Below, in pieces: positions 7,347 through 41,557 of a stretch of 64,000 nucleotides of DNA. The stretch spans positions 1,116,001-1,180,000 of the forward strand of contig NC_008009.1 in assembly GCF_000014005.1 (NCBI RefSeq), in the 5' to 3' direction. Numbering within the stretch: the first letter of the stretch is position 1; the number at the start of each line of letters is the position of its first letter. Made by a program: the position numbers and the translations under genes. The notes below the pieces were generated by a model. It ran no database searches, was not told the origin of the DNA, and worked only from the letters and a program-made list of their open reading frames with translations. The DNA is from Candidatus Koribacter versatilis Ellin345. GTDB lineage: Bacteria > Acidobacteriota > Terriglobia > Terriglobales > Acidobacteriaceae.

Positions 7347-7375
7347 TTGACACGGTGATATCAAGGTTTTAAAAG
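7347..7375 (+). promoter_or_regulatory. Predicted sigma-70 promoter of the TonB-dependent receptor
   Basis: A perfect -35 box TTGACA (7347-7352) and a -10-like TAAAAG (7370-7375) are separated by 17 bases. Transcription would start near 7382, about six bases before the palindromic operator. Confidence 0.6.
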
Positions 7376-7387
7376 TGGCAGCGTTGT

Positions 7388-7401
7388 CTAAAACGTTTTA
7401 G
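7388..7401. promoter_or_regulatory. Predicted LacI-type operator, perfect 14-bp palindrome
   Basis: CTAAAACGTTTTAG is a perfect palindrome centred on CG, the usual hallmark of LacI-family sites. It sits directly after the predicted start point of the receptor transcript, so a bound repressor would block initiation. It matches the dyad at 6071-6084 at 12 of 14 positions, which ties both to the regulator encoded between them. Confidence 0.7.
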
Positions 7402-7797
7402 ATGGGAAAAATATCCATCGAGAAAAGCCGGCATGACCGGCGAAGCTGTATTCGCGTTCCACGGAACGCTTCTTACAGGCGGCCCCTGCTATGAATTCTG
7501 CGATTTACCGGCCCCTTGGGCGCTCGACAGCGTCCGAGATTCTGGTGACAGTACCCGAGCCAGTATCGATTCTCGAACTGCAGCTGAAACGCCCGGCAGG
7601 CGGCCCTCCCGTTCGAAAAGCGCTCCAATCGCCAATAACGTTCACTCCACGTATTCATTCCGTTGCAATCCTCCGTACGCACGAACTGAGGCGTTCGACC
7701 TCCAGCAGTGATGCGTCGGCGTATGGAATGAATGAGAACAAAGTGAGTTTGACCTAGAGCCCGCAATGAACCAGTGCGGGCAGTTCGGGAGGTACCA

Positions 7798-11382: not shown

Positions 11383-11433
11383 CCAACGATGGGCGGCCGC
11401 AAGGTCGCCCATCCGATAAATCACTCTCGAATC

Positions 11434-11461
11434 GGGATGGCAGCCAGCCATCCCCTTTTTT
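11434..11461 (+). terminator. Intrinsic terminator after the TonB-dependent receptor
   Basis: GGGATGGC and GCCATCCC form an eight-bp stem with a five-base loop, followed by C and six T. A second stem without a T-run (11388-11413, GATGGGCG with CGCCCATC) precedes it. Together they separate the receptor from the GH42 gene. Confidence 0.85.
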
Positions 11462-11584
11462 CCTGAGGGCCCCCGCAGACATCTGGAATGCGGATGCGTT
11501 GCGTGCCGGTGACTGTGCCAAAGCCCCTCTGTATATTCAATTGCGTTCGGACTTAGAGGCAGAACTCTTATCGAGGAAATCGCG

Positions 11585-13642
11585 ATGAATGCATTAAAAC
11601 GGCTATTGGTCTTCAGCGCAGTTGCTGGATTGCTCACCGTGTTCGCTCCAGCTCAGAAGACGAACGCGCCATCGAATTCAGGATTGATGCTGGGAGTTGC
11701 ATGGTATCCAGAGCAATGGCCCGAAGACCGCTGGGAGAAAGATCTCGTCCTCATGCAAGCGGCGGGAATCCACGTAGTGCGTATCGGAGAGTTCGCGTGG
11801 AGCACGATGGAACCGAGCGAGGGAAAATACGAACTCGATTGGCTCCAGCGCGCGACCCGACTCGCTGCGAAGCATCACATCGACGTCATTCTTGGCACTC
11901 CTACTGCGGCCCCTCCAGTCTGGTTAACTCAGAAATACCCCGATACTTTGCTCATCGACGAACAGGGAAAACGCGCGGTGCATGGCAATCGCGCCCACTT
12001 TTCATTCACGAGCCCACGCTACCGCGAGTTCTGCCGCAAGATTGCGGAAGAGATGGCGCGGAAACTGGCGAAAGAGCCGAACGTTATCGGCTGGCAACTG
12101 GACAATGAGGTTTCCAATCCGTCGTATGACGGGTACACACGCGCGCAGTTCCAGGAATGGCTGAAGGACAAATATAAGGGTCTCGACGCTCTCAATCAGC
12201 ACTGGACGACAGCCTACTGGAGTCAAACGTACTTCGATTGGTCGCAGATTCCGATCCCAGTGGGCGGCAATAACCCCGGCCTCATGCTCGATTGGAAACG
12301 GTTCATCACCGACACTTGGTATAGCTATCTTTCGAATCAGATCGCGGCAATTCGCAAGTACGCGCCGGCGTCCCAACCGATTTGTACAAACACAATGGGA
12401 CTCTTCGATGGTTTCGACCACTACAAAGTTGAAAGTGAACTCGACATCGTCGCGTGGGACCATTACGTCGGCCAGGGCCACCTTAATCCGGACTTTGCCG
12501 GATTCATCCACGACCTGAATCGCGGATTGAAGCAGAAGAACTTCTGGGTGATCGAGACACAACCGGGCGCGGTGAATTGGCAATCGATCAATAACGTGTT
12601 GGACAAAGGTGAAGTGCGAGCGATGGCTTGGCACGACGTTGCGCACGGCGCGGACATGGTGAGTTATTGGCAATGGAGAAGCGCACTGAATGGGCAGGAG
12701 GAATATCACGGAGTGCTGGTGGGCGCGGACGGCACCCCTGTTCCGGTTTACGACGAAGTGAAACAGGTTGGTAACGACTTCGCGAAGGCGTATCCAGTTC
12801 TCGCGGGAACGTCGCCGCATTCCGAAGTTGCGATGCTGCATGACTACGACAGCCGTTGGGCGATCGATTGGCAGAAGCACAATCGCAACTACGATCAGAT
12901 CAAAATCCATGTCTCGTACTACCACGCCCTCCGAAAACTGGTCCACAGCATAGATGTCGTGAATCCTTCAGTTGCACTCAAAAACTACAAAGTCGTCGTT
13001 GCTCCAAATCTGAGTCTCATTCCCGACTCGCTGGCAAAGCATTTGCGTGAATACGTGGAACAAGGGGGGCATCTCGTCCTCGGGCCGAGAGCCGGCATGA
13101 AAGACGAGTTCAACGCGTTGCTTACGGAACGACAGCCTGGAGCACTGGTCGATACTCTCGGCGGGCGAGTGGAGCAATTCTATGCTTTGGATCAGGACGT
13201 TCCTCTCGAAGGCCCTCTTGGGTCGGGGCACTCTTCCCTCTGGGCCGAACAACTTAGCGCAAAGCCGGGAACGGATGCCTTGCTCACCTTTGGAAAAAGC
13301 AACGGTTGGCTCGACCGTCAGCCTGCAATCATCTCGCGCAAAGTCGGGAAGGGAAGAATCACATACGTGGGGGCCGTGCTCGATGAATCCCTGATGGACA
13401 AATTTGCCGGATGGATATTCTCGACCAGTGGATTGCATTCTGCATTTGGTCTCATTCCGGATGGTGTTGATGTTTCGGAGCGAAGTGGCAATGGGAAAGA
13501 CGTGTTCGTGCTCATTAACTTCAAGCAAGAGAACCAAAGCGTGCAACTCCCGAAGAGCATGAAGCGGGTACTCGCGAATGGGGAATCGGTGAGTAGCGTA
13601 AATCTGCCGCCGTACGGAGTGGAGGTCCTGGAGGCGCAATGA
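11585..13642 (+). CDS. Exported GH42 beta-galactosidase
   Basis: Removes terminal beta-galactosyl residues. The 685-residue protein has a signal peptide (MNALKRLLVFSAVAGLLTVFAPAQ), then the GH42 TIM barrel opening with GVAWYPEQWPEDRW. The acid/base Glu lies in GWQLDNEV (about residue 175) and the nucleophile Glu in VIETQPGAVNW (about residue 324). A trimerisation-like domain and a small beta domain follow. GAGGAAA precedes ATG 11585. Its end overlaps the start of the GH29 gene by four bases, so the two are translated together. Export is notable since many GH42 enzymes are cytoplasmic. With the fucosidase it would trim galactose-containing side chains. Confidence 0.93.
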   Translation: MNALKRLLVFSAVAGLLTVFAPAQKTNAPSNSGLMLGVAWYPEQWPEDRWEKDLVLMQAAGIHVVRIGEFAWSTMEPSEGKYELDWLQRATRLAAKHHIDVILGTPTAAPPVWLTQKYPDTLLIDEQGKRAVHGNRAHFSFTSPRYREFCRKIAEEMARKLAKEPNVIGWQLDNEVSNPSYDGYTRAQFQEWLKDKYKGLDALNQHWTTAYWSQTYFDWSQIPIPVGGNNPGLMLDWKRFITDTWYSYLSNQIAAIRKYAPASQPICTNTMGLFDGFDHYKVESELDIVAWDHYVGQGHLNPDFAGFIHDLNRGLKQKNFWVIETQPGAVNWQSINNVLDKGEVRAMAWHDVAHGADMVSYWQWRSALNGQEEYHGVLVGADGTPVPVYDEVKQVGNDFAKAYPVLAGTSPHSEVAMLHDYDSRWAIDWQKHNRNYDQIKIHVSYYHALRKLVHSIDVVNPSVALKNYKVVVAPNLSLIPDSLAKHLREYVEQGGHLVLGPRAGMKDEFNALLTERQPGALVDTLGGRVEQFYALDQDVPLEGPLGSGHSSLWAEQLSAKPGTDALLTFGKSNGWLDRQPAIISRKVGKGRITYVGAVLDESLMDKFAGWIFSTSGLHSAFGLIPDGVDVSERSGNGKDVFVLINFKQENQSVQLPKSMKRVLANGESVSSVNLPPYGVEVLEAQ

Positions 13643-15156
13643 ACAAGCCGCTGGTGGTGCTCGCATTTCTTGCTATTGGAACTCTGTTAACCGAAGCGCA
13701 GGAGCAACCTGCAAATGTTCAACGCGAACTGAAGTCCATTGACCACACTGTCGCTGCAGGGCCGTTCCGCGATGACTGGAATTCCCTGAAACAAATGAAA
13801 GTTCCCGATTGGTTTCGCGACGCAAAATTCGGGATCTTCATTCACTGGGGTGCGTACTCCGTGCCGGCGTGGGGCAACGAGTGGTATCCGCGAAACATGT
13901 ATCAGAAGAAAGAGCCGGAGTTCGCTCACCACATCGAGATTTACGGGCCGCAGAACAAATTTGGCTACAAAGATTTTCTGCCACAATTCACGGGAGACAA
14001 GTTCGACGCCGATCAGTGGGCCGACCTGTTTCGTCGCGCAGGAGCGAAGTACGTGATCGAAGTCGCCGAGCATCATGACGGCTTCGCGATGTACGACACT
14101 CAATTCAGCGAGTGGAAAGCTACAAAGATGGGACCGCATCGTGACGTGATCGCCGAACTTGGCCCGGCGGTTCGCAAGGCTGGATTGCATTTCGGAATCT
14201 CGTACCACCGCGCGGAGCACTGGTGGTTTTTCGATGGCGGCAGAACGTTCGACTCCGATGTAAACGACCCGAAGTATGCGAGTTTTTACGGCCCGGCCCA
14301 GCCTCAACGCTTGCCTGGTGCAGATCGTGACAATCAGCCAGATGCCGCGTTCCTTTCCGACTGGCTTGCCCGCAGTGGAGAAATTGTCGAGAAGTATCAC
14401 CCGGACCTCTGGTATTACGACTGGTGGGTCGGCCAGCCGGCGTTCGAACCCTATCTGCGGAAATTCGCAGCGTTCTATTACGACGAAGCAGCCAAGGCGC
14501 AGCAGCCGGTTGTCATGTACTACAAGGAAAAAGCAATGCCGCAAGGCACTGCGGTTCACGACGTCGAGCGTGGCAAACTCGCGGCCATCCAACCCGAACC
14601 TTGGCAAACTGACACTTCGATCAGCTACAAATCATGGGGCTACCTGAAAGATGACTCGCTGCGAACGCCAAAATCCATCGTGCAAGACTTGGTTGATATC
14701 GTTAGCAAGAATGGGTGCTTGCTATTAAATGTCGGTCCGAAGCCAGATGGAACGATTTCAGAGGACGAGCAGAAGATCTTGCTCGCAGTCGGAGAGTGGC
14801 TCTCTCTGAACGGAGAGGCTATTTACGGCTCTCGTCCGTGGACGACTTTCGGCGAAGGTCCGACCCAGGTGAAAGAAGGCAGCTTAAACGAAGGCGAGCA
14901 GAAGCCGTTCACTTCGGACGATATACGCTTTATTCGGAACCATGAGGCGCTGTATGCAATTTCGATGGATTGGCCGAAAGATGGAAGCATACGGATACGG
15001 TCACTCGACAAGGAATTGAAAGTGAGGAGCGTGTTGCTGGTGGGATCGGCAGGCAAGGTATCTTTCAAACAAGATGCCGAGGGGCTTTGGGTCGAACTGC
15101 CTAAGGATATAAGTGATGAACTGCTTCCGGTTTTGAAAATCGAATTTCGCCAATAG
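13639..15156 (+). CDS. Exported GH29 alpha-L-fucosidase
   Basis: Hydrolyses terminal alpha-L-fucose. The 505-residue protein has a short signal peptide (MNKPLVVLAFLAIGTLLTEAQ), then the GH29 barrel with WFRDAKFGIFIHWGAYSVPAW, YVIEVAEHHDGFAMYDT and the likely nucleophile Asp in LWYYDWW (about residue 261). A C-terminal beta-sandwich closes the protein. The start codon overlaps the GH42 stop (ATGA), giving a two-gene operon. Together with the beta-galactosidase and the GH31 enzyme it covers the linkages in fucosylated xyloglucan side chains; that substrate is an inference from the set. Confidence 0.93.
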   Translation: MNKPLVVLAFLAIGTLLTEAQEQPANVQRELKSIDHTVAAGPFRDDWNSLKQMKVPDWFRDAKFGIFIHWGAYSVPAWGNEWYPRNMYQKKEPEFAHHIEIYGPQNKFGYKDFLPQFTGDKFDADQWADLFRRAGAKYVIEVAEHHDGFAMYDTQFSEWKATKMGPHRDVIAELGPAVRKAGLHFGISYHRAEHWWFFDGGRTFDSDVNDPKYASFYGPAQPQRLPGADRDNQPDAAFLSDWLARSGEIVEKYHPDLWYYDWWVGQPAFEPYLRKFAAFYYDEAAKAQQPVVMYYKEKAMPQGTAVHDVERGKLAAIQPEPWQTDTSISYKSWGYLKDDSLRTPKSIVQDLVDIVSKNGCLLLNVGPKPDGTISEDEQKILLAVGEWLSLNGEAIYGSRPWTTFGEGPTQVKEGSLNEGEQKPFTSDDIRFIRNHEALYAISMDWPKDGSIRIRSLDKELKVRSVLLVGSAGKVSFKQDAEGLWVELPKDISDELLPVLKIEFRQ

Positions 15157-15164
15157 ATTTTACG

Positions 15165-15206
15165 GACGAGTACAAGGGGCTGCCGCGGCAGCCCCTTGTA
15201 CTCGTC
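15165..15206. terminator. 42-bp perfect palindrome, bidirectional terminator candidate
   Basis: Two 21-base arms, reading outward-in from GACGAGTACAAGGGG to the central CTGCCGCGGCAG, are exact reverse complements with no spacer. It lies between the converging GH29 and xylA genes. Each strand could form a very stable hairpin, but neither side has a clear T-run, so termination is inferred from position. Confidence 0.65.
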
Positions 15207-15221
15207 AAACAGAAGGCCTGA

Positions 15222-16379
15222 TTACCGTATTCCCCACAACAGTTCCATAGTCAGCTGATCGAGGCGCTCGTATTGCAGGCCGCGCTTCGCAATGGCTGCG
15301 CGATCATAGGTGCGGTTGAGAAGAGACAGAGCGCCATCGTGTGAATATTTCGAGCTGCCGGTGGTTTGCGGGTTGATCTCGGAGAAGATTTGCTGGATCT
15401 CCTTGTCGGCATTCCAGCGCTGCGCCTTTTCCTTCAGGATCAGGTAGCTTCGCATGCATCCGCGCGCAAAATCCTTTACGCCGGCGATGTCTTCTGTCCT
15501 GTAAGCGTGCGCGTCAAAGTGGCGCGGCCCTTGATACCCCGAGTCTTCAAGGAACTTCACCAACCAGAACATTGATTTTGGGGTTGCAGATGCAAAACGA
15601 AAATCCTGGTCATAGCGCCCAGGGTTCTGATCGTTTAGATCGATGTGGAAGAGTTTGCCCGCTTCCCATGCTTGCGCAACCGCGTGAAGCGCGTTCAATC
15701 CCGCCATGTGCTCGTGCGCGACCTCAGGATTTACACCAACCATCTCCGGATGCGCAAGGGTTGGGATGAAACCGAGATAGGCACCAGTCGTCGGCATGTA
15801 TATGTCGCCGCGAGGTTCGTTTGGCTTGGCCTCCAACGCAAATTTGAAACCATACTTTTTGTCGAGATTGTATTCGCACAAATAATCGATGGCTTCGCGC
15901 AACCGCTTGAAGGGTTCTTCGGGACGGCGGCACGCATCAGTCTCAGTTCCTTCGCGCCCACCCCAGAGCACAAAGAGCTTAGCGCCTAACTCGGCGCCGA
16001 GATCCATAGCGCGCATCGTCTTCTGAAGAGCGTACGCACGCACATCGGCGTCGTTTGCGGTGAAAGCTCCATCTTTGAAGATTGGATCGAAGAACAAGTT
16101 GACCGTCGCCATCGGCACGACGATGCCGTGCTGCCTGCAGGCCGCCTGAAAATCGCGGACGATCTTGTCGCGCTCGGATGGCGTCGCGTCAATTGGAACA
16201 AGATCGTTATCGTGAAGATTGACCCCCCATGCGCCTACCTCGCGGAGCAAAGCGACAATGTCGTTCGGAGGGATAGTGGGGCGCACTGCATCGCCGAAAG
16301 GATCGCGGCCGCGGTTCGCGATCGTCCAAAGGCCGAACGAGAACTTGTGTTCCGGTCGCGGCTGGTAAGCATCAGACAT
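15222..16379 (-). CDS. xylA: Xylose isomerase, class I short form
   Basis: Interconverts D-xylose and D-xylulose in the cytoplasm with two divalent metals. At 385 residues it matches the short actinobacterial-type enzymes rather than the ~440-residue form. Visible motifs are [17 protein letters not shown] at the start, LHDNDL (catalytic His), [23 protein letters not shown] (metal ligands) and FHIDLNDQ. It is the last gene of the minus-strand xyl operon, 15 bases after xylB, with GGAGGA five bases before its ATG. The 42-bp palindrome lies right downstream. Confidence 0.96.
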
Positions 16380-16394
16380 GTGTTCCTCCAGGTT

Positions 16395-17912
16395 TCATGC
16401 CACCGTCGAGGTGGCGGCCATACCGATCGAGCGCAGCGCTGGATAAATGCGACGATAACGTTCGTATTGCTGCTGCAAGACGGCTGAATTCGTTAGATCG
16501 GGCGCGATCGTCTCGCCGACCTGAACAGTTTCGGCGCACGCGGCATCCACCGTGGGCCAGACCTTTGCGCCAACACCGGCGAGCAGGGCGGCGCCATGGG
16601 CTGCGCCCTCATCGACAAGAATCGTTTCGACTTTATGCTTATAGACATCTGCCTGGATTTGGCGCCAGAGCGGTGAGCGTTGCCCGCCGCCTCCGAGCCG
16701 AATACTCGAAACGGGTACTCCCATCTCGGCGAAGATCGAGAGGCTATCACGCAAACTGAAGGCAACCCCTTCCAGAATTGCGCGAAGGATGTGTGCGCGA
16801 CCGTGATTTGCCGCGAGTCCGACAAGTGCTGCCCGAGCGTTCGGATCGACGTGGGGTGTGCGCTCACCCATAAGGTATGGCGCCCAAAGCACCCCGTCGC
16901 ATCCTGGCGGGGCGGAGGCAGCTTCGTCCATTAGGCGATCGTAGGGATCGCGTCGATCTTCCACTCGCGTGCCAAAGTTGTCGCGGAACCAGCGGAGAGA
17001 CAGCCCGGCAGCTTGCGTCACGCCCATCACGTGCCAGCGCCCCGGAACAGCGTGACAGAATGTGTGTAATCTCCCCAGCGGGTCCATTGCAGGGCGATCC
17101 GTAGATGCAAAGACCACACCTGATGTGCCGATCGTCGCATGCACCGCGCCTGCGCTTACAACTCCGAGCCCAACGGCGCCCGCCGCTTGATCGCCAGCTC
17201 CCGCTACCACGGGCGTTCCCGCTGCGAGCCCCGTAGCTGCTGCACCCTCTTTCGACACCACGCCACAAACGTCGCACGATTCGAAAAGCGGCGGCAATGC
17301 CTTGAGATCGATGCCCGTCGCGTTCGCCATCTCACTTGACCAACGCCTGCGCGCAACGTCGAGCAGCAAGGTGCCTGAACCGTCCGCCATGTCCATTGCG
17401 AATTCGCCTGTGAGGCGAAGACGAACGTAATCCTTGGGCAGTTGCAGTCGGCGAAAACGTTCATAGAGTTTCGGTTCGTGCTTCCGCACCCACATCAACT
17501 TGGTCAGAGTGAAATTCGTGAGCGCTGGATTGCATGTCCATTCAATGAGCTGTTTCTCGCCGATTTGTTCTGTCAGTTCGCGAGCTTCTTCGGCAGTGCG
17601 CTGGTCACACCAGATCAGTGAAGGCCTCAGTACTTGATTGTTCTCGTCGAGCAGAACGGCACCATGCATCTGTCCGGAGAACCCCACAGCCGCGATCTCG
17701 GAGTTGGTGACGCCTGACTCGACAAGCACGGCTCGGACGGATTCACCGCATGCTCGCCACCAGTCGTGCGGATCTTGCTCCGCCCATCCAGTTTTCGGAG
17801 AAGCAAACGGCTGATGCTCGGCAGTGCGCGAAGCGATCACGCGGCCTTTGTCGTCAATCAAGACCGCCCGCGTTCCGCCCGTGCCAACGTCGATTCCGAG
17901 TAACTTCGGCAT
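16395..17912 (-). CDS. xylB: Xylulokinase
   Basis: Phosphorylates D-xylulose to xylulose 5-phosphate, feeding the pentose phosphate pathway. The 505-residue protein has the FGGY-kinase fold: the N-terminal phosphate loop LLGIDVGTGGTRAVLID, VGFSGQMHGAVLLD, VVAGAGDQAAGAVGLG and IRLGGGGQRSPLWRQIQADV near the end. It lies between the permease gene and xylA in the xyl operon, nine bases after the permease stop. Confidence 0.95.
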   Translation of the reverse strand: MPKLLGIDVGTGGTRAVLIDDKGRVIASRTAEHQPFASPKTGWAEQDPHDWWRACGESVRAVLVESGVTNSEIAAVGFSGQMHGAVLLDENNQVLRPSLIWCDQRTAEEARELTEQIGEKQLIEWTCNPALTNFTLTKLMWVRKHEPKLYERFRRLQLPKDYVRLRLTGEFAMDMADGSGTLLLDVARRRWSSEMANATGIDLKALPPLFESCDVCGVVSKEGAAATGLAAGTPVVAGAGDQAAGAVGLGVVSAGAVHATIGTSGVVFASTDRPAMDPLGRLHTFCHAVPGRWHVMGVTQAAGLSLRWFRDNFGTRVEDRRDPYDRLMDEAASAPPGCDGVLWAPYLMGERTPHVDPNARAALVGLAANHGRAHILRAILEGVAFSLRDSLSIFAEMGVPVSSIRLGGGGQRSPLWRQIQADVYKHKVETILVDEGAAHGAALLAGVGAKVWPTVDAACAETVQVGETIAPDLTNSAVLQQQYERYRRIYPALRSIGMAATSTVA

Positions 17913-17921
17913 GCTCTGATC

Positions 17922-19124
17922 CTATCCGTTGCGCTTGCGGCTGAGCATGTCGAGCGCAACAGCGGCAACGAGAATGGTGCCCTTCACGATATCTTGCGTA
18001 AAATCGGGAACGTTTTTCAGCGACATCCCATTGTCCAGGCTCGCCATGAACAGCGCGCCCATGCATGCGCCCGCTATGGTACCGCGCCCGCCCATCAAGC
18101 TGGCCCCGCCGATAACGCACGCCGCAATGGCATCCAGTTCAAGCAGAAGTCCAGCGTCAGGCGATGCGCTTCCGACGCGCGCGGTATAGATTACGCCTGC
18201 CAACCCAGCGAGCAATCCCAGTACGCCGAATGTCGCAATGGTCAGCGCGCGAGTGTTGATGCCGGAGAGGCGCGCAGCTTCACGGTTCCCGCCGACGGCG
18301 TACATGTAACGTCCCCAGGTTGTGTTTGACATAACAAAGGCGCCAGCAAGGGCGACAATCAGGAACAATAGGACGGGTACAGGGATTCCTTCATACGCGT
18401 TGAGCATAGCAACCAGGGCCACGGACAAAACCGAGGGAATACCGATGCGAAGTGCAAGCTGCGTACTCGAAAGAGTTGATAGTCCAAGGCGCTTGCGCGA
18501 GGACTGCCAGCGAAGCTGCGTGACGATAATCGCTACCACCGCCAGAGCAGCGAACGCCCAGCCGATCGGTTTGTCCAGATAGGATTGGCCGATTGAGTTG
18601 AAATTGTACAGTTGGATTGGAATCGTCTGGCCCGCACTGATCGCTTTTGTTACGCCGCGCCAAGCAAGCAGTCCTCCGAGAGTCACGATGAAGGACGGAA
18701 CGCGAGCGTACGAAGTGAGGATTCCCTGTGCGCAGCCAATGATCAGGCCAAAGACAAGAGCGATGGTCAAGGTCGCGGTCACACCCCAGGCGTTGTTTGC
18801 CTGGACGAGCGCTGCAGCCATCCCTGTTAGACCAACTAGCGATCCAACGGACAAATCGATTTCGCCAATCACGATCACCATCAGCATGCCCACAGAGAGC
18901 ACACCGGTGACAGCCATCTGTCGCGTGAGGTTTGAAAAGTTGCGCGCATTCAGGAATACGCCGTGAGTGGTGTATTCGAACACGATCCAAATCGCCACCA
19001 GCGCAGCCGCCATCGTGTAAGCTCGCGCGGTTGCACCGAACTTCACTTGCGGCGGAAGATTGCTCGTCCTTCCAGCCTCAACAATTTGCACACTCGTGGC
19101 TACTGCACGATTGTTGCCGCTCAT
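17922..19124 (-). CDS. xylH: Xylose ABC transporter permease
   Basis: Inner-membrane channel subunit of a sugar ABC importer of the xylose/ribose class. The 400-residue length and about ten membrane segments fit XylH. Family motifs include [13 protein letters not shown] and [15 protein letters not shown]. It overlaps the ATPase gene by four bases. The xylose assignment rests on xylB and xylA in the same operon. Confidence 0.93.
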
Positions 19125-20674
19125 GCGTCGCTCCTGCCGTGCGACGACGAATTGATTTCTTTGATTCCAGTAGCAAGGCTCATGATCTTTTCAGGAGTTG
19201 CCTCGGCGCGCTTCAGTTCGCCCCTGACACGTCCTTCGTGAAGTACAAGAATTCGGTCACAAATTCCGCGCAACTCTTCTAACTCCGATGAAACCACGAG
19301 TAGAGCAAGGCCTCGATGCGCAAGTTCGTCGATTCGGGAGTAGATCTCCTGTTTGGCGCCAACGTCGATGCCGCGGGTGGGTTCGTCGAGCAGGAGGATT
19401 TTTGGATTCTTCATCAACCACTTGCCGAGTACGACCTTTTGCTGGTTGCCACCCGACAGCGTGCCTACGACCGTCTCTGGTGAGTTCGCCTTTACGCGCA
19501 GGTCCTTCATTGTCTGCTCAACGCGAGCAACTTCGCTAACTTGGTCCAAGACGGATGCTTTCGCGAAACCCTTCAAGGCGACGAGGCTCATATTGCTCTG
19601 GACGGAATGATCAAGCGACAAACCGAGTCGTTTGCGATCTTCCGTCACAAAGGCAATGTTGTGGGCGATCGCGTCTGCAGGTTGGGTAAGCGCCACGTCC
19701 TCGCCTTCGACGAGGATCGACCCAGTACCGTGCTCTGGAAAGGATCCGAACAGTACATTGAGCAGCGCTGTGCGACCCGATCCCATCAACCCCGCAAGGC
19801 CGACCACTTCGCCAGCACGCACCTGAAGCGAAACGTTTGTTAGCACATTGCGGTTTGGCAATGTCGGATGCTTAACGGTTAGGTCCCGGAGTTCTAAAGC
19901 AACTTTACCTGCCGCACGCTGCGGCTCAGGGAAGACCTGCTGGATGTCGCGGCCCACCATGAGAGAAATCATCTGCTGACGATTGACGTCCCCGCGGAGT
20001 TTAGTTGCGATCGTACGTCCATCTCGCAGGATTGTGATCCGGTCCGCGAGCGCGAGAACCTCATCGAGGCGGTGCGAAATATATATAAGTCCGAGGCCCC
20101 GCCCCCGGAGCGCACCCAGAATGTCGAAGAGTGTCTGCGATTCGGCTTCGTTTAGAGCAGCCGTGGGCTCATCGAGAATGAGAATTCTCGCATTGTGCGA
20201 AAGAGCCTTCGCTATCTCAACCAGTTGCTGTTGGCCAATACCGAGATCACGGACGAGCCTTTCTGTCGGCAGGTCGACGCCAAGCGAATCGAGCAGAACC
20301 CGCGCTGTTTTGTGAACATCGCTCCAGCGCACAAACGGACCGGAAGCCTGCAGCCGTCCGAGGAAAATATTCTCAGCAATGGAAAGCTCAGGAACCAAAG
20401 ACAATTCCTGGAATACGATCGCGATTCCGGCGCGCTCGGCAGCGCGAATTCCGTCAAACTGCTGCTGAGCGCCCTCGATCACAACACTTCCGGAATATTC
20501 CCTGTGAGAATAGACACCGCTCAGAACTTTCATGAGCGTAGATTTGCCGGCGCCGTTCTCACCTACGAGAGCGTGAATCTCGCCTCCGAGCAGGTCGAAG
20601 CTGACTCCGTCCAGCGCGTGTACGCCGGAGAAGTCTTTAGACACGTCGACCATGCGCAACAGAGGTTCTGGCAT
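19121..20674 (-). CDS. xylG: Xylose ABC transporter ATPase, two nucleotide-binding domains
   Basis: Powers sugar import from the cytoplasmic face. The protein of about 517 residues has two ABC domains. The first has Walker A GENGAGKST and Walker B ILILDEPTAALNE; the second has a degenerate Walker A (GLMGSGRT), signature LSGGNQQKV and LLLDEPTRGIDVGA, as is usual in the sugar-transport class. ATG 20674 is preferred because GAAGGA lies six bases upstream; an in-frame GTG at 20692 would overlap the xylF end. Confidence 0.94.
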   Translation of the reverse strand: MPEPLLRMVDVSKDFSGVHALDGVSFDLLGGEIHALVGENGAGKSTLMKVLSGVYSHREYSGSVVIEGAQQQFDGIRAAERAGIAIVFQELSLVPELSIAENIFLGRLQASGPFVRWSDVHKTARVLLDSLGVDLPTERLVRDLGIGQQQLVEIAKALSHNARILILDEPTAALNEAESQTLFDILGALRGRGLGLIYISHRLDEVLALADRITILRDGRTIATKLRGDVNRQQMISLMVGRDIQQVFPEPQRAAGKVALELRDLTVKHPTLPNRNVLTNVSLQVRAGEVVGLAGLMGSGRTALLNVLFGSFPEHGTGSILVEGEDVALTQPADAIAHNIAFVTEDRKRLGLSLDHSVQSNMSLVALKGFAKASVLDQVSEVARVEQTMKDLRVKANSPETVVGTLSGGNQQKVVLGKWLMKNPKILLLDEPTRGIDVGAKQEIYSRIDELAHRGLALLVVSSELEELRGICDRILVLHEGRVRGELKRAEATPEKIMSLATGIKEINSSSHGRSDA

Positions 20675-20676
20675 CG

Positions 20677-21735
20677 CTAGTCCTTCGGCCACTGCGTGCG
20701 CGAGACATTTTTGTATATGTCTTCGCGCTTCAAGAAGCCGTCTTTAATGACAGTAGAATCGATGTTCGTGCGATCAACAACAATCGGCGCGAGAAGAATT
20801 GAAGGAACTTCTTTCGCGCCGTTGTTAACGTTCGAATTTGACTGGACCTTCTCGCCACGCGCAAGCGCTACCGCCGCCGCTGCTGCATTTTCTGCGAGGG
20901 GCTTGATCGGCTTGTACACGGTCATCGACTGCGTGCCCTCGACGACGCGCTGCGCGGCCGCGAGGTCGGTGTCTTGACCCGATACAAGCACTCTCCCCGC
21001 CAAGCCCTGTTCTCCAAGCGCCTGAATGGCGCCACCGGCGGTGCTGTCATTTGAAGTCACCACCGCGGCGACATGATTATTTGCCTGCGTGAGAGCGTTT
21101 TCGGTGTGACGCAGAGCTTCACTAGGCAGCCAGTCTTTGGCCCATTGGTCCGCGATGATGCGAATGTCGCCGCGCTTGATGGCGGGACTAAGAACCTGCA
21201 TTTGGCCTTCGCGAATTAAGTGAGCGTTGTTATCCGTTGGTGAACCGCCGATAAGAATGTAATTGCCCGCTGGTGCGCGGGCGTAGAGGTATTTCGCCTG
21301 TAACTCACCAATCAGCTTGTTGTCGAATGAGACATACAGACTCACATTCGAATCGCGAATCAGTCGGTCATACGAGATCACGGGCACGCCCTGCGCCTCA
21401 GCACTGCGCACCGCCGATGCCATGACTTCGCCGTTATGCGGCACTATGACAAGAACATCGACGCCCATCGTCAGCAAGTTTTCGCACTGTCGGATCTGGA
21501 CAGCATCCACTCCGTTGGCGGATTGTATGAATACTTCGGCTCCGAGTTGGCTGGCTTTCGCCACGAAGGCATCCCGATCATGTTGCCAGCGTTCCAATTG
21601 CAGCGAGTCGAGCGACAATCCAATCTTCACCGGGCCCTTGCCGCGAGATTGCCGCGCCTCTTCATGCCCACGGTGGCAGGATGTTGAGAATTCGAGCAGA
21701 GCCACTATACAGAGTAAGAGGATGAAGTTGCGCAT
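20677..21735 (-). CDS. xylF: Xylose ABC transporter substrate-binding lipoprotein
   Basis: Captures xylose in the periplasm and delivers it to XylGH. The protein of about 352 residues has a signal peptide ending FSTSC, so it is probably a lipoprotein, followed by two alpha/beta lobes with KIGLSLDSLQLERWQHD, GVDVLVIVPHNGE, VPVISYDRLI, NYILIGGSPTDNNA and VLVSGQDTDLAAAQ, all typical of XylF. It is the first gene of the operon. I chose ATG 21735 because it starts exactly at the signal peptide; an in-frame ATG lies at 21768. Confidence 0.94.
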   Translation of the reverse strand: MRNFILLLCIVALLEFSTSCHRGHEEARQSRGKGPVKIGLSLDSLQLERWQHDRDAFVAKASQLGAEVFIQSANGVDAVQIRQCENLLTMGVDVLVIVPHNGEVMASAVRSAEAQGVPVISYDRLIRDSNVSLYVSFDNKLIGELQAKYLYARAPAGNYILIGGSPTDNNAHLIREGQMQVLSPAIKRGDIRIIADQWAKDWLPSEALRHTENALTQANNHVAAVVTSNDSTAGGAIQALGEQGLAGRVLVSGQDTDLAAAQRVVEGTQSMTVYKPIKPLAENAAAAAVALARGEKVQSNSNVNNGAKEVPSILLAPIVVDRTNIDSTVIKDGFLKREDIYKNVSRTQWPKD

Positions 21736-21796
21736 GGACCAACGTGCCTTGGCGGCAGCATTATGCACGTTGCCGCGATGAATGAAAAGCCTTATC

Positions 21797-21840
21797 GTGT
21801 ACGTGCACGGTCAGTGTATCGCGAGCGTGCCGTTTCTCAA
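21797..21840 (-). promoter_or_regulatory. Predicted xyl promoter with LacI-type operator at the start point
   Basis: On the minus strand a -35-like TTGAGA (21835-21840) and a -10-like TACACT (21813-21818) are 16 bases apart. The near-palindrome GTGTACGTGCAC (21797-21808, central CG, 10 of 12 symmetric) covers the expected start point. The divergent regulator at 21962 is the likely binder. Confidence 0.5.
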
Positions 21841-21961: not shown

Positions 21962-23035
21962 TTGAGACAGAGAAGCGGAATCCCGAAAATCGCTGAGCTC
22001 GCTGGCGTTTCGATCGGAACCGTGGATCGTGCCTTGCATGAGCGACCCGGCATCAATGCAGCCACGCGCGACCGGATATTGAAAATCGCGGAAAAAATTG
22101 GCTATAAACCAAATCTCGCGGCACGTTCGCTCGTCACGGGCAAGCGAATCAGGATCGGTGTCTGCATGCCACGCGAAATCGCCTACTTTTATGACGAGAT
22201 GTGGCGCGGGATTGAAGAGGAATCAGCCCGATTCATCGAGCGTGGCGTCGAATTCGTATTGCGGCCTGTCCCTGAACTTGGTGTCGGAGATCACGAAGCG
22301 ATGCGAGAGTTGATGGCGGCAACGGTCGAGGGAATCATCGTAACTCCGGGGCATCCAAAAGCCAGCACCCCCCTCATCAATCAGGCCGAGCGGAAGGGAA
22401 TTCGTGTTGTTTGTGTCTCCACCGATGCTCCGCGCAGTTGTCGGTCATCAATCGTGTGCGTAGAGCCACACTTGAATGGGGCGATCGCCGGAGAACTGAT
22501 GGCGAGATTTGTGCCTGCGGCTTCGAAGGTCGTAGTAATAACTGGCATGCTCGATACGCATGATCATCGGGCGAAAGCCGATGGCTTCAAAGACGGATTC
22601 ATGCGGAACAACAGGTGCGGAGAGGTCCTGGATGTCATCGAAGCCCACGAAAGCGCAGATGAGAGCTTCCGCAAAACCTCAGACCTCTTAAAAAACGTCC
22701 CAGACTTGCGGGGAATCTATGTGAACACCGTCAATTGTCTCCCGGTATGTCGCGCACTGCACGGTTCAGGATTGCATGGAAAAGTTCAGCTCATTTCCAC
22801 GGACCTATTCGGTGCAATGGTTCCATTTTTGGAGGACGGCACAATTGCGGCTTCGATGCACCAGCGACCGTTTCGACAGGCGCAAATTGCCGTCCGAAGT
22901 TTGGCGGAGCATCTCCTGCACAACGCCCCACTTGCACCTACGCAGAACCTGAATCCGAGTATCGTGCTCCGCAGTAACCTGCACTTATTCCGCGAAGCCG
23001 CGATGGATCGCCTTCAGAGCGTCGCACTGCGTTAA
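21962..23035 (+). CDS. LacI-family regulator divergent from the xylose operon
   Basis: A 357-residue regulator. The helix-turn-helix (residues ~7-50) contains IPKIAELAGVSIGTVDRAL and ends IGYKPNLAARSL, a classic LacI DNA-binding and hinge region. The effector domain resembles sugar-binding proteins (GIIVTPGHP, HLNGAIAGELMARF, ITGMLDTHDHRAKADGF). The start is TTG, with AGAGG five bases upstream. It is divergent from xylF over a shared gap with an operator-like dyad, so it is probably the xylose-responsive regulator. A -35-like TTGACT (21860-21865) with a CATAAA box may serve it. Confidence 0.9.
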   Translation: MRQRSGIPKIAELAGVSIGTVDRALHERPGINAATRDRILKIAEKIGYKPNLAARSLVTGKRIRIGVCMPREIAYFYDEMWRGIEEESARFIERGVEFVLRPVPELGVGDHEAMRELMAATVEGIIVTPGHPKASTPLINQAERKGIRVVCVSTDAPRSCRSSIVCVEPHLNGAIAGELMARFVPAASKVVVITGMLDTHDHRAKADGFKDGFMRNNRCGEVLDVIEAHESADESFRKTSDLLKNVPDLRGIYVNTVNCLPVCRALHGSGLHGKVQLISTDLFGAMVPFLEDGTIAASMHQRPFRQAQIAVRSLAEHLLHNAPLAPTQNLNPSIVLRSNLHLFREAAMDRLQSVALR

Positions 23036-23183: not shown

Positions 23184-24965
23184 TCATTGTTTCGGTGACT
23201 CCGCGGCAGACGTCGTACTGGTTGCTCCCGCGACCGGAGGCAGTTGGGTGCGCTTGCGGATGCCTTGGTCCTCTACGATCTCGTAAATGAAGTCCCCTGG
23301 CACATCCCGCAGGACCTCTTTCTTTCCGGTCGGCCACCAGATCTCCACGGTGGTCATCTTGTCGTCAGCGCCAAGTCCGAAGTGCACACGTAGGTCGTTC
23401 ATCGAGAGGTAACTCGCCCCACTCCGAACTTCATTCATTTGCTTGAGCGTGGGAGAGATCACCGTGATCCGCGCACCAATCGCGGCGCGGTTACTTTTTG
23501 TTCCCACGAGCTTGAAGATGACGCGATGGTTCGAATTCTGCGTCTGGTTGATTAGCAGATTCGGCGGTTCTCCTATGTTCTGCAGGAGAATGTCGACATT
23601 TCCGTCGTTGTTGATATCGCCGAATGCGGCCCCTCGCCGAGACTGTTCGGGAATCGCATTCAAACCGGCACCTTCAGATATATCTTTGAACGTTCCGTTT
23701 TGCAGGTTTTGGAATAACTGCATCCGTTCGCGGTAGCGAGGACTCCCGGGGATCGCGTCCACCTGCGGGTAGACGTGTCCGTTCGCAACAAAAACATCCG
23801 GCCAGCCATCATTGTCGAAGTCCACGAATCCCGTGCCCCACTTCACGTACGAGAAACTTCCTTGCCCCAACCCAGACGCCCATGCCATGTCCGTAAAGCT
23901 CTTGTTTCCGAGATTGTGGTAGAGGTTGTCGGGTTGATCCGTAAAATTCGTAACGAAGATATCGAAGTTGCCATCGTGGTCGTAGTCGCCTGAGTCCACT
24001 CCCATCGACCCAAGCTCTTGTCCGTCGTCACTGAGTGCGACGCCCGAGACCAAACCGACTTCTTCGAAGGTGCCATTGTGGTTGTTGTGATAAAGAAAAT
24101 TCGGCCCCGCATCGTTCGCCAGATACAAATCCGGCCATCCATCGTTGTCGTAATCCGTCCAAATTGCACCGAGTCCGTAGCGATGCTTCGGATCGTCCAC
24201 GCCTGCCTTTTTTGAGACTTCTTCGAAAGTTCCATCACCTCGGTTGTGAAACAACTTGTCGCTCTCGCCTTGCATGCCCCACGGCCCGCATTGCACCAGG
24301 ACACCTTTGAATCGGCAGAATCGTTCGTCGCTCCCGAAACTTGGCAAGTTATTTATGTCGAGGTGGACGTACCTCGACACAAACAGATCTACATTGCCGT
24401 CCTTGTCGTAATCTCCCCACGCGGCGCCAGCGTTTAACCCATCCATCGCGACGCCGGCCTTTTCAGTCACGTCTTTAAACTTGCAGTTTCCGAGACCCTT
24501 GTAGAGCGCATTTCTCCCATAGCCGGTAACGTAGATGTCCAAGATCCCGTCGTTGTCGAAGTCGGCAACCGCGACGCCCATTCCCCAGCCTTTGACCGTC
24601 AGACCTGCAGCTTCGGTGATGTCGGTGAATTTTAGGTCGGCATCCTGGTGATAGAGCCGGACGAGCGGATCCCCCCCTTGCTTAAATCGGTCTACAGTCG
24701 ATCCGCCAGCGATCAGCAGATCGAGCTTTCCGTCGTCATCGCAATCGAAGAGTCCAGAGCCGCCGCTCATCGATTCGATGATGTAGTGCTGCTCCGGGGA
24801 CGAAATGTGCGACCCCGTGACACCCGCCTTTTTAGCGATATCCTCAAACTTCGGAATCGACGGTTTTGCGGGAGCGGGTGGACCGGGAACCTGGCCAAAA
24901 CCAGAGGTCAGAAGAACCGCCAAAAACGATAGAAAAAGTCTCATTGGGTACCGGAATCTCGTCAT
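23184..24965 (-). CDS. Exported FG-GAP/ASPIC-UnbV (CRTAC1-type) protein
   Basis: A protein of about 593 residues with a signal peptide (MTRFRYPMRLFLSFLAVLL... ending GFGQ). The body is a beta-propeller of FG-GAP repeats with calcium-type loops, for example FDCDDDGKLDLLIAGG, ADFDNDGILDIYVTGYG, GDYDKDGNVDLFVSRY and TDYDNDGWPDLYLAND. The C-terminal ~100 residues match the ASPIC/UnbV domain (RAAIGARITV, EVRSGASYLSMNDLRVHFGLG). The biochemical role of the family is not established. The start is uncertain: ATG 24944 also fits. It is divergent from a TonB-dependent receptor, an association repeated at 41,558-48,839. Confidence 0.88.
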   Translation of the reverse strand: MTRFRYPMRLFLSFLAVLLTSGFGQVPGPPAPAKPSIPKFEDIAKKAGVTGSHISSPEQHYIIESMSGGSGLFDCDDDGKLDLLIAGGSTVDRFKQGGDPLVRLYHQDADLKFTDITEAAGLTVKGWGMGVAVADFDNDGILDIYVTGYGRNALYKGLGNCKFKDVTEKAGVAMDGLNAGAAWGDYDKDGNVDLFVSRYVHLDINNLPSFGSDERFCRFKGVLVQCGPWGMQGESDKLFHNRGDGTFEEVSKKAGVDDPKHRYGLGAIWTDYDNDGWPDLYLANDAGPNFLYHNNHNGTFEEVGLVSGVALSDDGQELGSMGVDSGDYDHDGNFDIFVTNFTDQPDNLYHNLGNKSFTDMAWASGLGQGSFSYVKWGTGFVDFDNDGWPDVFVANGHVYPQVDAIPGSPRYRERMQLFQNLQNGTFKDISEGAGLNAIPEQSRRGAAFGDINNDGNVDILLQNIGEPPNLLINQTQNSNHRVIFKLVGTKSNRAAIGARITVISPTLKQMNEVRSGASYLSMNDLRVHFGLGADDKMTTVEIWWPTGKKEVLRDVPGDFIYEIVEDQGIRKRTQLPPVAGATSTTSAAESPKQ

Positions 24966-25110
24966 TGTACAGCCAAGTCTCTCGTCCCGCTGTTTAGGGC
25001 TCCTCCCACAAAATCGATTCGCTAAAGGCACCAAAATGCCAAAAATGACCAAAATGGGAAGCTAGTAACTTTATATTATTGACAGACTTCCGAGCTCCTC
25101 ACTTTTTGGC

Positions 25111-25139
25111 TTGACAAGTCATGTGAACGCACCTTTAAA
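25111..25139 (+). promoter_or_regulatory. Predicted sigma-70 promoter of the second TonB-dependent receptor
   Basis: A perfect -35 box TTGACA (25111-25116) and a -10-like TTTAAA (25134-25139) are separated by exactly 17 bases. Transcription would begin near 25146. Confidence 0.65.
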
Positions 25140-25170
25140 TACCGCCCCAAGCCTGTGCATGGCCTCAAGA

Positions 25171-25202
25171 ATAACGTTATCCGAGCTTCAGAATAACGTT
25201 AT
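25171..25202. promoter_or_regulatory. Tandem palindromic operators, two copies of ATAACGTTAT
   Basis: The 10-bp perfect palindrome ATAACGTTAT, preceded both times by AGA or GA, occurs at 25171-25180 and 25193-25202. The centres are 22 bp apart, two helical turns, so two dimers could bind the same face. The central CG suggests a LacI-family protein. The pair sits 25-57 bases after the predicted transcription start. Confidence 0.65.
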
Positions 25203-25339
25203 GGCGGAAAAATCGGGCAAGACTCGAACTGCCTGATCCAGCGCCGAACCCTGAGGCTGTCTTTGCGAGTAGTCGCTTAAGCCGCCGCCGAAAGGTGGCA
25301 TATGTAGCACCAGATGGACTTGGTTTGTGGAGGGATGGC

Positions 25340-28300
25340 ATGCGTTACCGCTTTGCCTGTTTGGCAGTTCTGATTGCCCTTGCGTTATCAACCCTTTCGT
25401 TTGCCCAAAAGATCGCTGGCACCATTACCGGAACCGTCTCGGATCCGCAGGGTGCAGTAGTCCCGGGAGCGACCGTCATTGTTACTGACGAGGCAACGAA
25501 CGCGACGCGTACAACGACCACTAAATCCGCAGGTGAATTCACGGTTCCGAACTTGGATCCGGGCACCTATTCGGTAAAAGTTTCGGGATCAGGTTTCAGC
25601 GATTTCGAAGCGAAGCGGGTCGAGGTACACGTCTCCAGCATCACCCGTGTGGATGCGAAACTTCAGGTTGGAACCACGAAGCAGGAAATCGTGGTCGAAG
25701 CCCAGGGTATTGAACTCAACACCGAAAACGGCGAAGTCGGCAACGTCATCACCGGCGCCCAGGTTCGCGAGCTTCCTCTGAATGGCCGCAACTTCGTCCA
25801 ATTGACCACCATCATGCCCGGCGCTTCCGTTTCGGAAGGCTTCGACAACAAGAGCAAGGGCTTGATGGGAGGCGTCGACATCTCGTTCAGCGGCGCTCCG
25901 TCCAACGCCAACCAGTGGCGTGTAGACGGTGCCAACAACAACGACATTGGTTCGCAGCGCACCATTTTGATGTATCCGTCGATCGACGGCATCGAAGAGT
26001 TCAAGATTCTGCGCAACAGCTACGGCCCCGAATACGGCGGGGGTGGCGGAGCGCAGGTCAACGTCGTAACCAAGGGTGGCGGCAACGAGTACCACGGCGA
26101 TGCTTACTACTTCGGCCGTAACGGCGTCCTCAATGCCAAGAACTATTTCATCGGTCTGAACACTTGCACGAGCGGTAGTGATCCGGCTTGCCAGAAACAA
26201 GCTCTTCAGCGTAACGATTTCGGTTACACGTTGGGCGGTCCGATCGTGAAGGACAGGGTCTTCTTCTTCTGGTCGGAAGAGTGGAACTACGAACGTCGCG
26301 GCGCCGTTCGCCACGATTGGGTTCCGACCGCACAGGAACGTGCGACGGGCGATTTCAGCGATATTGCATCATGTCCTGCGGGCTCCAAGGGACCTGCTGC
26401 TCCTAATTTCGCGAAATACAACACGACTGGCGACACGGTTGGTTCGGGAACGAATGGCCAAATTATGGATCCCGGCCATCTCAGCCCGGCCGGACAGGCG
26501 CTGGTCTCGATGATGCCGCTTCCGACGGCCAGTCCTTGTAACCAGTATGACTGGATCGCGCAAGTCAAGGTTCCCCTCAACTGGCGCGAAGAGAACATCC
26601 GCGGCGACATCAAGATCACCAAGAACAACAACCTGATGTTGCGTTACGCGCAGGATTCCTGGGACAACCCACTGCACGCTTCCGCCAATGGCGAAGCCGG
26701 CCTGTGGGGTACGCAGGACTTCCCGGCGGTCAGTGATGCGTGGTCGCAGCCCAGCAAGATGGCCGTTGCCCGCTTGACCACCACTATCGGCACCACAATG
26801 GTGAACGACTTCCAGTTCTCCTATTCGGCGAACCGCATCAACATCGTCAAAGCCGGTGACGACACCGCTCTCGGAAATTCGATCCGCGCTGCGGTTCCAA
26901 CCGTCTATCCACTTTCAGGCAAACTCCACTCCAGTGATCTGCCGATGCCGATCTGCTGGTGCTCCACTTACTTTGGTACACAGGGGCCTTGGAACAACAA
27001 CCAGGATCTCTACACCTGGCGAGATGACTTCTCCAAGGTCGCGGGTAAGCACACGCTCAAGCTCGGAATTCTCTACGATCAGAACTCCAAGAACGAAGAG
27101 CAAGGTGGTGAAGCCGGCGGTCTGTGGGGTTCGGCTGGATACAACAAGGTTAGCTGGGACGGCGGTTCTGGCAACTTCTATGGCGACATGCTGCTCAAGA
27201 ACATGAGTTGGGGCGGCGGTGAGAACGCGAAGAACGTCATCGCCGACATTCGTTGGCGCGACGTCGAGTTCTACGCTGGCGATACCTGGAAGGTGACGCC
27301 ACGCTTTACCTTGGACTACGGCTTCCGCTGGTCCTTCATGCCGCCAGAGTGGATGGACAAAAACGATTGGTCCATCTTTAACCCCGCTGTCTATGATCCG
27401 ACCAAGGGAGCCGATCCGTGCAACGGTGTCGAGTTGCCCAAGGGCGGCGACACTAGCTTGTGCGCGGGGCTCGGTTCCTCGATCACTCCTGCTGTCTCGC
27501 AATACCGTAGCTTACGTCCGTCCAACAATCACCTGATCCAACCCCGTTTGGGCTTTGCTTACGATGTATTCGGAACCGGCAAATTTGTGCTCCGTGCTGG
27601 CATTGGCCAGTTCTTTGCACGCGATCCTGTCGGTCTCACTCTGCGCTCGAAGTCCGTGAACCCGCCGTTCGCGGCCGCTGCGAGCGGCTACCGTACGCTC
27701 GACGGTTTCGGTCCAAACAACACACCCACCACCTGGGACAATGGCGGCGCGGTGAATGCGTGGCCCACCGGTGGTACTCCGACTCAAAGCTTCGAGCAGA
27801 ACTCGAATCTCTCCAACTCGTGGCAGTGGAATATCACCACCGAGGCAATGCTGACGAAGGACACCAAGCTGGAACTCGCATGGGTGGCCCTGCGTGGTAT
27901 TCACCTTGGATCCGCCGCCGATATCAACCAGATCGCGCCGGATAACCGCTTAGCTTACATAGAACGTGGCTTGGCTAATTCCGGTGACACTCGAACTGAT
28001 CTGTTCCCGTACGGTGGCCTGACCACTGGTCAGATTACCCAGTGGAACCACCGCGGCGATTCGATCTACCACTCACTGCAGGCGATGTTGAGCACAAAAT
28101 TGACGCGCAACTCGATTCTGCAAAGCAGCTACACTTGGTCCCACAACATCTCAACCACTACGCTCGGTTACGTGGGCACGTCCACCGCTGTTCCTGACAG
28201 CTACAATTCCGCAGCCAACCGTGGAAATGCTGACTTCGACCGGCGCCATGTGTTCAACCTCAGCTTGGTTTACAACTCTCCGGCTCTTCAAGGACACAAT

Positions 28301-28972
28301 ATGTTCGTGAAGGGTGTTGCTGGCGGGTGGGAACTGGGCTCGATCTTGAACTTCTCCTCCGGTCCGGCGATCACCGTGAATGGACTTTCTGTTTCCAATC
28401 TTTGTCCGTCCCAAGCCCAGCTTGCCGATTGCAATGCGGGTACAGTACCGCTTATTGGAGTCAACAACCCGTGGGGCGTTTCGAACGCTGGCCAATATGG
28501 TGCGCGTCCGAGCGTCGTTTCGAACGTAGCTTGCAATACCGGCAGCAGCTCCCAGTGGCTTAATCAATCAGCGTTTACAGCCAATGGTTTCCCGCTCGGT
28601 GGCTACCCGAATTCTGGTCCGGGTCAGTGCGCCGGTCCCGGAACGGCAAATGCCGATGTATCTGCCATGAAGAACTGGAACTTGCCGATCCATGGCAAAC
28701 ACTTCTTCACGGAAGGTGCGCACCTGCAATTCCGTTTCGAATTGTTCAACCTTGCCAACCATCCGATGTTCCGGTTCAACAACAACCACCTGACCTACAC
28801 GGCCACTGGCTATGCCAACGGCGCAACCAGTGGTCCGGTGAACGGCTACATCGCTGATGACGGTACGATTCAGGGAACCAGCCTCGTTCAGGGTTCGACC
28901 TTGGGTCAGCCTGGCTTCCTGAACAACATCGGCAACCGCGAAATCCAATACGCTCTGAAGTTCATCTTCTAG
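25340..28972 (+). CDS. TonB-dependent receptor, Oar-like
   Basis: A 1,210-residue outer-membrane receptor with a signal peptide (MRYRFACLAVLIALAL... ending SFAQ), a carboxypeptidase-regulatory-like domain (residues ~24-105, GTVSDPQGAVVPGATVIVTD), a plug domain with RELPLNGRNFVQLTTIMPGA and WRVDGANNNDIGS, and a barrel ending in YALKFIF. ATG 25340 is chosen because GGAGGG lies five bases upstream; upstream codons in frame lack such a site. It faces a CRTAC1 gene and precedes TPR and VWFA genes. The substrate cannot be read from sequence. Confidence 0.92.
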   Translation: MRYRFACLAVLIALALSTLSFAQKIAGTITGTVSDPQGAVVPGATVIVTDEATNATRTTTTKSAGEFTVPNLDPGTYSVKVSGSGFSDFEAKRVEVHVSSITRVDAKLQVGTTKQEIVVEAQGIELNTENGEVGNVITGAQVRELPLNGRNFVQLTTIMPGASVSEGFDNKSKGLMGGVDISFSGAPSNANQWRVDGANNNDIGSQRTILMYPSIDGIEEFKILRNSYGPEYGGGGGAQVNVVTKGGGNEYHGDAYYFGRNGVLNAKNYFIGLNTCTSGSDPACQKQALQRNDFGYTLGGPIVKDRVFFFWSEEWNYERRGAVRHDWVPTAQERATGDFSDIASCPAGSKGPAAPNFAKYNTTGDTVGSGTNGQIMDPGHLSPAGQALVSMMPLPTASPCNQYDWIAQVKVPLNWREENIRGDIKITKNNNLMLRYAQDSWDNPLHASANGEAGLWGTQDFPAVSDAWSQPSKMAVARLTTTIGTTMVNDFQFSYSANRINIVKAGDDTALGNSIRAAVPTVYPLSGKLHSSDLPMPICWCSTYFGTQGPWNNNQDLYTWRDDFSKVAGKHTLKLGILYDQNSKNEEQGGEAGGLWGSAGYNKVSWDGGSGNFYGDMLLKNMSWGGGENAKNVIADIRWRDVEFYAGDTWKVTPRFTLDYGFRWSFMPPEWMDKNDWSIFNPAVYDPTKGADPCNGVELPKGGDTSLCAGLGSSITPAVSQYRSLRPSNNHLIQPRLGFAYDVFGTGKFVLRAGIGQFFARDPVGLTLRSKSVNPPFAAAASGYRTLDGFGPNNTPTTWDNGGAVNAWPTGGTPTQSFEQNSNLSNSWQWNITTEAMLTKDTKLELAWVALRGIHLGSAADINQIAPDNRLAYIERGLANSGDTRTDLFPYGGLTTGQITQWNHRGDSIYHSLQAMLSTKLTRNSILQSSYTWSHNISTTTLGYVGTSTAVPDSYNSAANRGNADFDRRHVFNLSLVYNSPALQGHNMFVKGVAGGWELGSILNFSSGPAITVNGLSVSNLCPSQAQLADCNAGTVPLIGVNNPWGVSNAGQYGARPSVVSNVACNTGSSSQWLNQSAFTANGFPLGGYPNSGPGQCAGPGTANADVSAMKNWNLPIHGKHFFTEGAHLQFRFELFNLANHPMFRFNNNHLTYTATGYANGATSGPVNGYIADDGTIQGTSLVQGSTLGQPGFLNNIGNREIQYALKFIF

Positions 28973-41259: not shown

Positions 41260-41557
41260 CTCACGAATTTCTTTTCCCGTCCTGACACAATTTGACGCAA
41301 ATAATAGGTTTCTTGTATTGACACGTCCTACAAGCCCATTGACAAGCCCTTCCGCCGCAATGTACTTTCTCGGTCACGTGTAAACGTGACTTGTGTCACT
41401 TGCCTAAGTGATGCGGGGTTTACCGGGATCAAGACAGTCCAGGATTCAGAGAAATCCATAAGGACTGCAAGGGCGATATGTCGCCCGCTCCTGGCGAGCC
41501 TGATTCACCCCCTGAACTGCTTTCAGATGGCGCCCCAAGCGCCTTCGGAGGTCGAGA
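41260..41557 (+). other. 298-base gap upstream of the third receptor
   Basis: Contains the promoter and inverted repeats at 41339-41399 and a leader of about 170 bases. A five-bp stem (GGCGC 41529-41533 with GCGCC 41539-41543) stands just before the ribosome binding site. I see no gene. Confidence 0.6.
41339..41399 (+). promoter_or_regulatory. Predicted promoter and overlapping inverted repeats of the third receptor
   Basis: A perfect -35 TTGACA (41339-41344) and a -10-like TGTACT (41361-41366) are 16 bases apart. From 41373 the arms GTCACGT and ACGTGAC surround four bases (41373-41390), and GTGAC-TTGT-GTCAC overlaps the second arm (41386-41399). They lie at the expected start point. The dyad centre is not CG, so the binder is probably not of LacI type. 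Confidence 0.55.

Follow-up and report, generated by a model that had tools for sequence, protein, structure and literature searches.

A predicted pair of LacI-family operators two helical turns apart in the leader of a TonB-dependent receptor gene of Candidatus Koribacter versatilis, and a candidate unlinked regulator

The stretch of Candidatus Koribacter versatilis Ellin345 DNA analysed here (64,000 nucleotides, hereafter the window) contains a TonB-dependent receptor gene whose predicted leader carries two identical palindromes. This raises the question of which regulator acts on these sites, and how. We compared the locus with the rest of its genome, a single contig of 5,650,368 bp, and with related genomes; the features concerned are collected in Table 1.

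The palindrome pair and the receptor promoter

The two copies of the 10-bp palindrome ATAACGTTAT that the preliminary description had reported have their centres 22 bp apart and belong to a longer common unit of 13 nt, AGAATAACGTTAT (25168-25180 and 25190-25202). No further match to ATAACGTTAT with up to one mismatch was found anywhere in the window, and 100 dinucleotide shuffles gave no exact match. The two copies of the window pair are also the only exact copies of ATAACGTTAT in the whole genome. Similar DNA was not found in plasmids. Both copies are even-length palindromes with a central CG (ATAAC.GTTAT), and sites of the same kind recur at promoters adjoining LacI genes of one clade, as described below. 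These features support the LacI-like character first ascribed to the palindromes, and the pair is very probably a pair of LacI-family operators, as predicted from its sequence.

The elements of the predicted promoter are present upstream of both palindromes, with TTGACA at 25111-25116, a 17-nt spacer and TTTAAA at 25134-25139. TTTAAA agrees with TATAAT at only four of six positions, and a consensus promoter scan did not report TTGACA-17-TTTAAA. The promoter call is reasonable because a TTGACA-17-TTAAA-like form also precedes homologous receptors in two relatives (L194 and L187). Transcription of the receptor gene would start near 25146, which would place both palindromes in the transcribed leader. 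Since the two copies can form a 10-bp stem there, the repeat might instead work at the RNA level, as a hairpin in the leader, or be a chance repeat. We regard both as highly improbable: the stability of the leader is unremarkable (z = -1.58; 16 of 200 shuffles as good), an Rfam search of the leader gave nothing credible, homologous sites lie mostly upstream of the promoter and so outside the transcript, and a chance origin of two exact copies is very unlikely.

Table 1. Coordinates of the operator pair, the receptor locus and candidate regulators (window positions unless a locus or genome handle is given)
Feature	Position	Strand	Remarks
Operator 1, AGAATAACGTTATCCG (predicted)	25168..25183	+	Core palindrome 25171-25180; centre about +30; 2 mismatches to AGAATAACNNTATTCT
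Operator 2, AGAATAACGTTATGGC (predicted)	25190..25205	+	Core palindrome 25193-25202; centre about +52; 3 mismatches to AGAATANNNNTATTCT
Possible degenerate upstream site, CTAGTAACTTTATATT	25062..25077	+	Directly 5' of a second TTGACA at 25079; core with 2 mismatches; weak
Predicted receptor promoter, TTGACA-17-TTTAAA	25111..25139	+	Similar elements 5' of homologous receptors in L187 and L194
TonB-dependent receptor (CarboxypepD_reg, OMP_b-brl_4)	25340..28972	+	Presumed target; start about 25340, ATG preceded by GGAGG
ASPIC/UnbV FG-GAP protein	23184..24944	-	Divergent neighbour; start codon chosen by hand, ORF could begin at 25052
XylR-like LacI-family regulator	21962..23035	+	Adjoins xyl genes, divergent from xylF, xylG, xylH, xylB and xylA; considered for the pair but disfavoured
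Predicted operator of the XylR-like LacI, CGTGTACGTGCACG	21796..21809		5' of xylF; G000:1137796-1137809
Tandem LacI genes, LTxGT[VIC]SA helix	L167:8044-9126 and L167:6951-8090	-	Divergent from GH116 and GH5 glycoside hydrolase genes

Related operators and the candidate regulator

We sought homologues of the receptor in 100 relatives. The receptors most similar to that of the window often adjoin a gene for a LacI protein with the recognition helix LTxGT[VIC]SA and have AGAATA-type palindromes at their promoters, such as AGAATAACATTATTCT in a locus of the same genus (L194) and AGAATAACATTATTGT in two others (L198 and L199). The half-site AGAATAAC, which is characteristic of this LacI clade and sets it apart from the XylR-like clade considered below, precedes the homologous receptors beside LTxGT[VIC]SA LacIs in these three loci, and variants of it do so in L187, L196 and L038. 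AGAATA palindromes are paired in three loci, at a spacing of 31 bp in L196, 32 bp in L187 and 21 bp in L038. The window sites have the corresponding AGAATA[AT]C half-site: the left halves of both are AGAATAAC, and A occupies NT-5 in all four halves. Compared with the full 16-bp AGAATA-nnnn-TATTCT, both copies match in the left arm and the core, and their mismatches (2 in one copy, 3 in the other) are confined to the right outer arm.

Among 79 usable LacI loci from a named-genome scan, an AGAATA-nnnn-TATTCT site (up to two mismatches to AGAATANNNNTATTCT, within 650 bp upstream of the LacI gene) was present in 21, where Markov shuffles gave 1.25 and coding stretches 3. This enrichment overstates the independent support because the loci are mutually related; moreover, the motif letters were drawn from homologues within this group, and a few of those recur in the scan. 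The site was found in 14/14 loci with a divergent receptor, and the motif was found in none of roughly 20 loci with SLVIN-type LacIs. The arrangement in two turns recurs as well: there were six close pairs at 20-22 bp, where 0.5 were expected, all of them spaced by exactly 21 bp, as against 22 bp in the window.

In the source genome, the LTxGT[VIC]SA clade is represented by a tandem pair of LacI genes at 2.045 Mb, 0.9 Mb from the window, and either of the two LacIs is a candidate. One of them is 79% identical to the LacI adjoining the receptor in L194. The genome has only two matches to AGAATAACNNTATTCT with 0-1 mismatches, AGAATAACAATATTCT and AGAATAACGATTTTCT, and both lie in the intergenic region between the tandem LacI genes and the GH116 and GH5 genes. 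Of the matches with two mismatches, one lies 5' of a GH3 gene (L215) and another 5' of a receptor, although beside a GntR gene (L205); the others in the genome look mostly incidental. The preliminary description had proposed an unlinked regulator, and this comparative evidence, which was outside its reach, supports that proposal in the form of the tandem LacI pair.

We therefore favour the reading, with a probability of roughly 0.68, that the window pair represents operators of the LTxGT[VIC]SA LacI clade, which would be served by the tandem pair at 2.045 Mb and would repress the receptor by hindering promoter clearance or passage. The sites, their uniqueness in the genome, and the clade-specific motif with its recurrence before homologous receptors are observed; that a 2.045-Mb LacI binds the window copies is inferred, as are the sign of regulation, a sugar as ligand, the roadblock and any cooperativity.

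Other LacI genes in the window and the genome

The preliminary description had also held that no regulator gene is adjacent to the pair. Since the gene for the XylR-like LacI lies only 2.3 kb upstream, this is true solely in the strictest sense, and a second LacI gene is found at 6129-7214, before another receptor. The claim stands to the extent that both LacIs belong to groups with other operators. The XylR-like LacI, whose gene is the closest of its family, could bind the pair and bring the receptor and the xylose genes under common control. Its clade often adjoins receptors, some sites of the clade have the same core, TAACGTTA, for example CGTTAACGTTAACG, and one pair of clade sites 21 bp apart occurs in L146. 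We at first favoured this protein on account of the shared core. We now consider it unlikely as the regulator of the pair, because the pair does not match its predicted operators at NT-5 and NT-6 and because its recognition helix has Arg at residue 20 (TVDR), a residue reported to go with G at NT-6 in the LacI/GalR family (Camas et al. 2010, PMC2978694). Of the 80 half-sites in 40 sites of the XylR-like clade, 79 have G at NT-6, and 76 have T at NT-5 and none has A there, counts that describe the spread of the pattern by which the sites were selected and are no independent measure; the window pair, in which every half has A at NT-5, has G at NT-6 in only one of four. Furthermore, the predicted clade operator is CGTKNACGTNMACG, and its one copy at the xylF promoter in the window, CGTGTACGTGCACG, differs from the pair.

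Loci of XylR-like LacI homologues have CGTTAACGTTAACG, or CGTGTACGTTAACG as a variant of it, close to a LacI gene, a receptor gene or xyl genes. The source genome encodes a paralogue with 60% identity at 0.52 Mb, beside a receptor that is itself preceded by CGTTAACGTTAACG (L035:10973), and CGTTAACGTACACG before a GH3 gene (L164:8749) is a predicted operator of the clade in the same genome. Two further lines of reasoning were abandoned. The rarity of TAACGTTA, with 7 occurrences against 69 for a reversed control, was dropped as a sign of selection, the comparison being unfair because the reversed control is without TA steps. The counts of TTAACGTTAA in G054 and G030 were rejected as a regulon signal; the sites in G054 lie on small contigs without a linked receptor or LacI.

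Given nine LacI-type genes in the genome and window sites whose match is imperfect beyond the core, another of these nine proteins, or a regulator of a different family, might bind the pair. We consider this slightly less likely still than binding by the XylR-like LacI: loci with SLVIN/SMVIN-type helices, in none of which the AGAATA motif occurs, have other palindromes, for example CTAAATC/GATTTAG, and for the LacI encoded at 6129-7214, the site 5' of the receptor that belongs to it is TCTAAAACGTTTTAGA. This TCTAAAACGTTTTAGA is a perfect 16-bp palindrome at 7387-7402, between the LacI gene and the next receptor, and is likely the operator of that LacI.

Several further observations were made in the course of this comparison. 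The region from 3662 to 21768 is a cluster of GH31, LacI, receptor, GH42, GH29 and xylABFGH genes, suggesting a xyloglucan-type utilisation region. An inverted repeat, GTCACGTGTAAACGTGAC, lies at 41373-41390, after a TTGACA, and a third receptor gene follows at 41558. In two loci whose LacIs have the helix SSAAVSMVIN (L293 and L295), the palindromes GATTAAACGTTTAACC and AGTTAATCGTTTAACA lie 22 bp apart upstream of the LacI gene, another two-turn pair. Two copies of CTAAGTTTAACGTTAACCT lie 28 bp apart between two divergent genes in G030 (L100:10713 and 10741).

Operator position, regulon and known systems

In most relatives, the site begins 17-20 nt before TTGAC, upstream of the -35 element and at a near-fixed position, and three loci (L234, L236 and L237) have a further site centred 70-88 nt after the start of TTGAC, downstream of the promoter. 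The window pair occupies downstream positions only, 3' of the predicted promoter with centres 64.5 and 86.5 nt after its TTGACA element, joined perhaps by the degenerate site at 25062-25077, which may be due to chance. A site upstream of -35 could mean activation in those relatives. The near-fixed position is an argument for the same in the window, with the LacI acting as an activator or with the sites forming an activator platform whose true promoter lies elsewhere. This is very doubtful here: the window sites lie after the sole good promoter, there is no TTGACA between them and the start codon, and at the GH116 genes one site seems to lie between -35 and -10, which argues against activation.

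Repression by the LTxGT[VIC]SA LacI would most likely be exerted just downstream of the transcription start, and a roadblock from sites downstream of the predicted promoter is plausible. When ligand is absent, the repressor would occupy the two operators, which are centred near +30 and +52 and lie roughly on one face of the helix, and RNA polymerase would be impeded in promoter clearance or in moving past. Production of the receptor would then require the sugar, the repressor being presumably sugar-responsive.

The nearest homologue of the receptor (54%, in G059) stands in the gene order ASPIC-LacI-receptor. We found no LacI remnant between the ASPIC gene and the receptor gene in the window. 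With the LacI gene missing from this slot and no remnant left, the pair looks like orphan operators whose regulator would be encoded at 2.045 Mb, and we infer a loss of LacI in the source lineage rather than a gain in G059. More tentatively, at somewhat less than even odds, the receptor may have lost its LacI neighbour and kept a two-turn pair served in trans by the LacI that controls GH116 and GH5, with 21-22 bp pairs being a recurrent LacI-receptor design in acidobacteria. If this is true, the receptor and the GH116 and GH5 hydrolases form one sugar regulon, and the operators seem to have outlived the adjoining regulator gene.

Receptors of the same type are numerous in the genome, with dozens of candidates (71 at first look), and the searches made found no literature on LacI control of such receptors in Acidobacteriota. 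The analysis thus offers a specific regulator-target link, open to testing, in a little-studied phylum. Two LacI clades emerge from the comparison, each with its own predicted operator and with target genes that can be named.

Like LacI/GalR operators in general (PMC2978694), the sites are even-spaced palindromes with a central CG, in which the half-site bases follow the recognition helix. Unlike the TVSR group analysed in that study, the LTxGT[VIC]SA helix has Ala in place of Arg as residue 20 (TVSA), and A predominates at NT-6. In Xanthomonas campestris, the LacI/GalR-family repressor SuxR controls the TonB-dependent receptor SuxA (PMC1790865), a combination of repressor and carbohydrate receptor similar to the candidate one described here; however, SuxR is encoded in the receptor locus, whereas our candidate is encoded 0.9 Mb away and belongs to another phylum. 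An elongation roadblock by CcpA at downstream cre boxes has been reported for several operons of Bacillus subtilis (PMC3463425). The window sites are likewise predicted to follow the transcription start, a placement consistent with a block after initiation like that reported at those operons, and the candidate regulator, like CcpA, is a LacI-family protein. CcpA is a global catabolite regulator that works with HPr-Ser-P, whereas the target set here would be small and presumably sugar-specific, with two identical sites. Together, these comparisons point to an ordinary kind of LacI operator pair whose predicted regulator assignment is specific and new.
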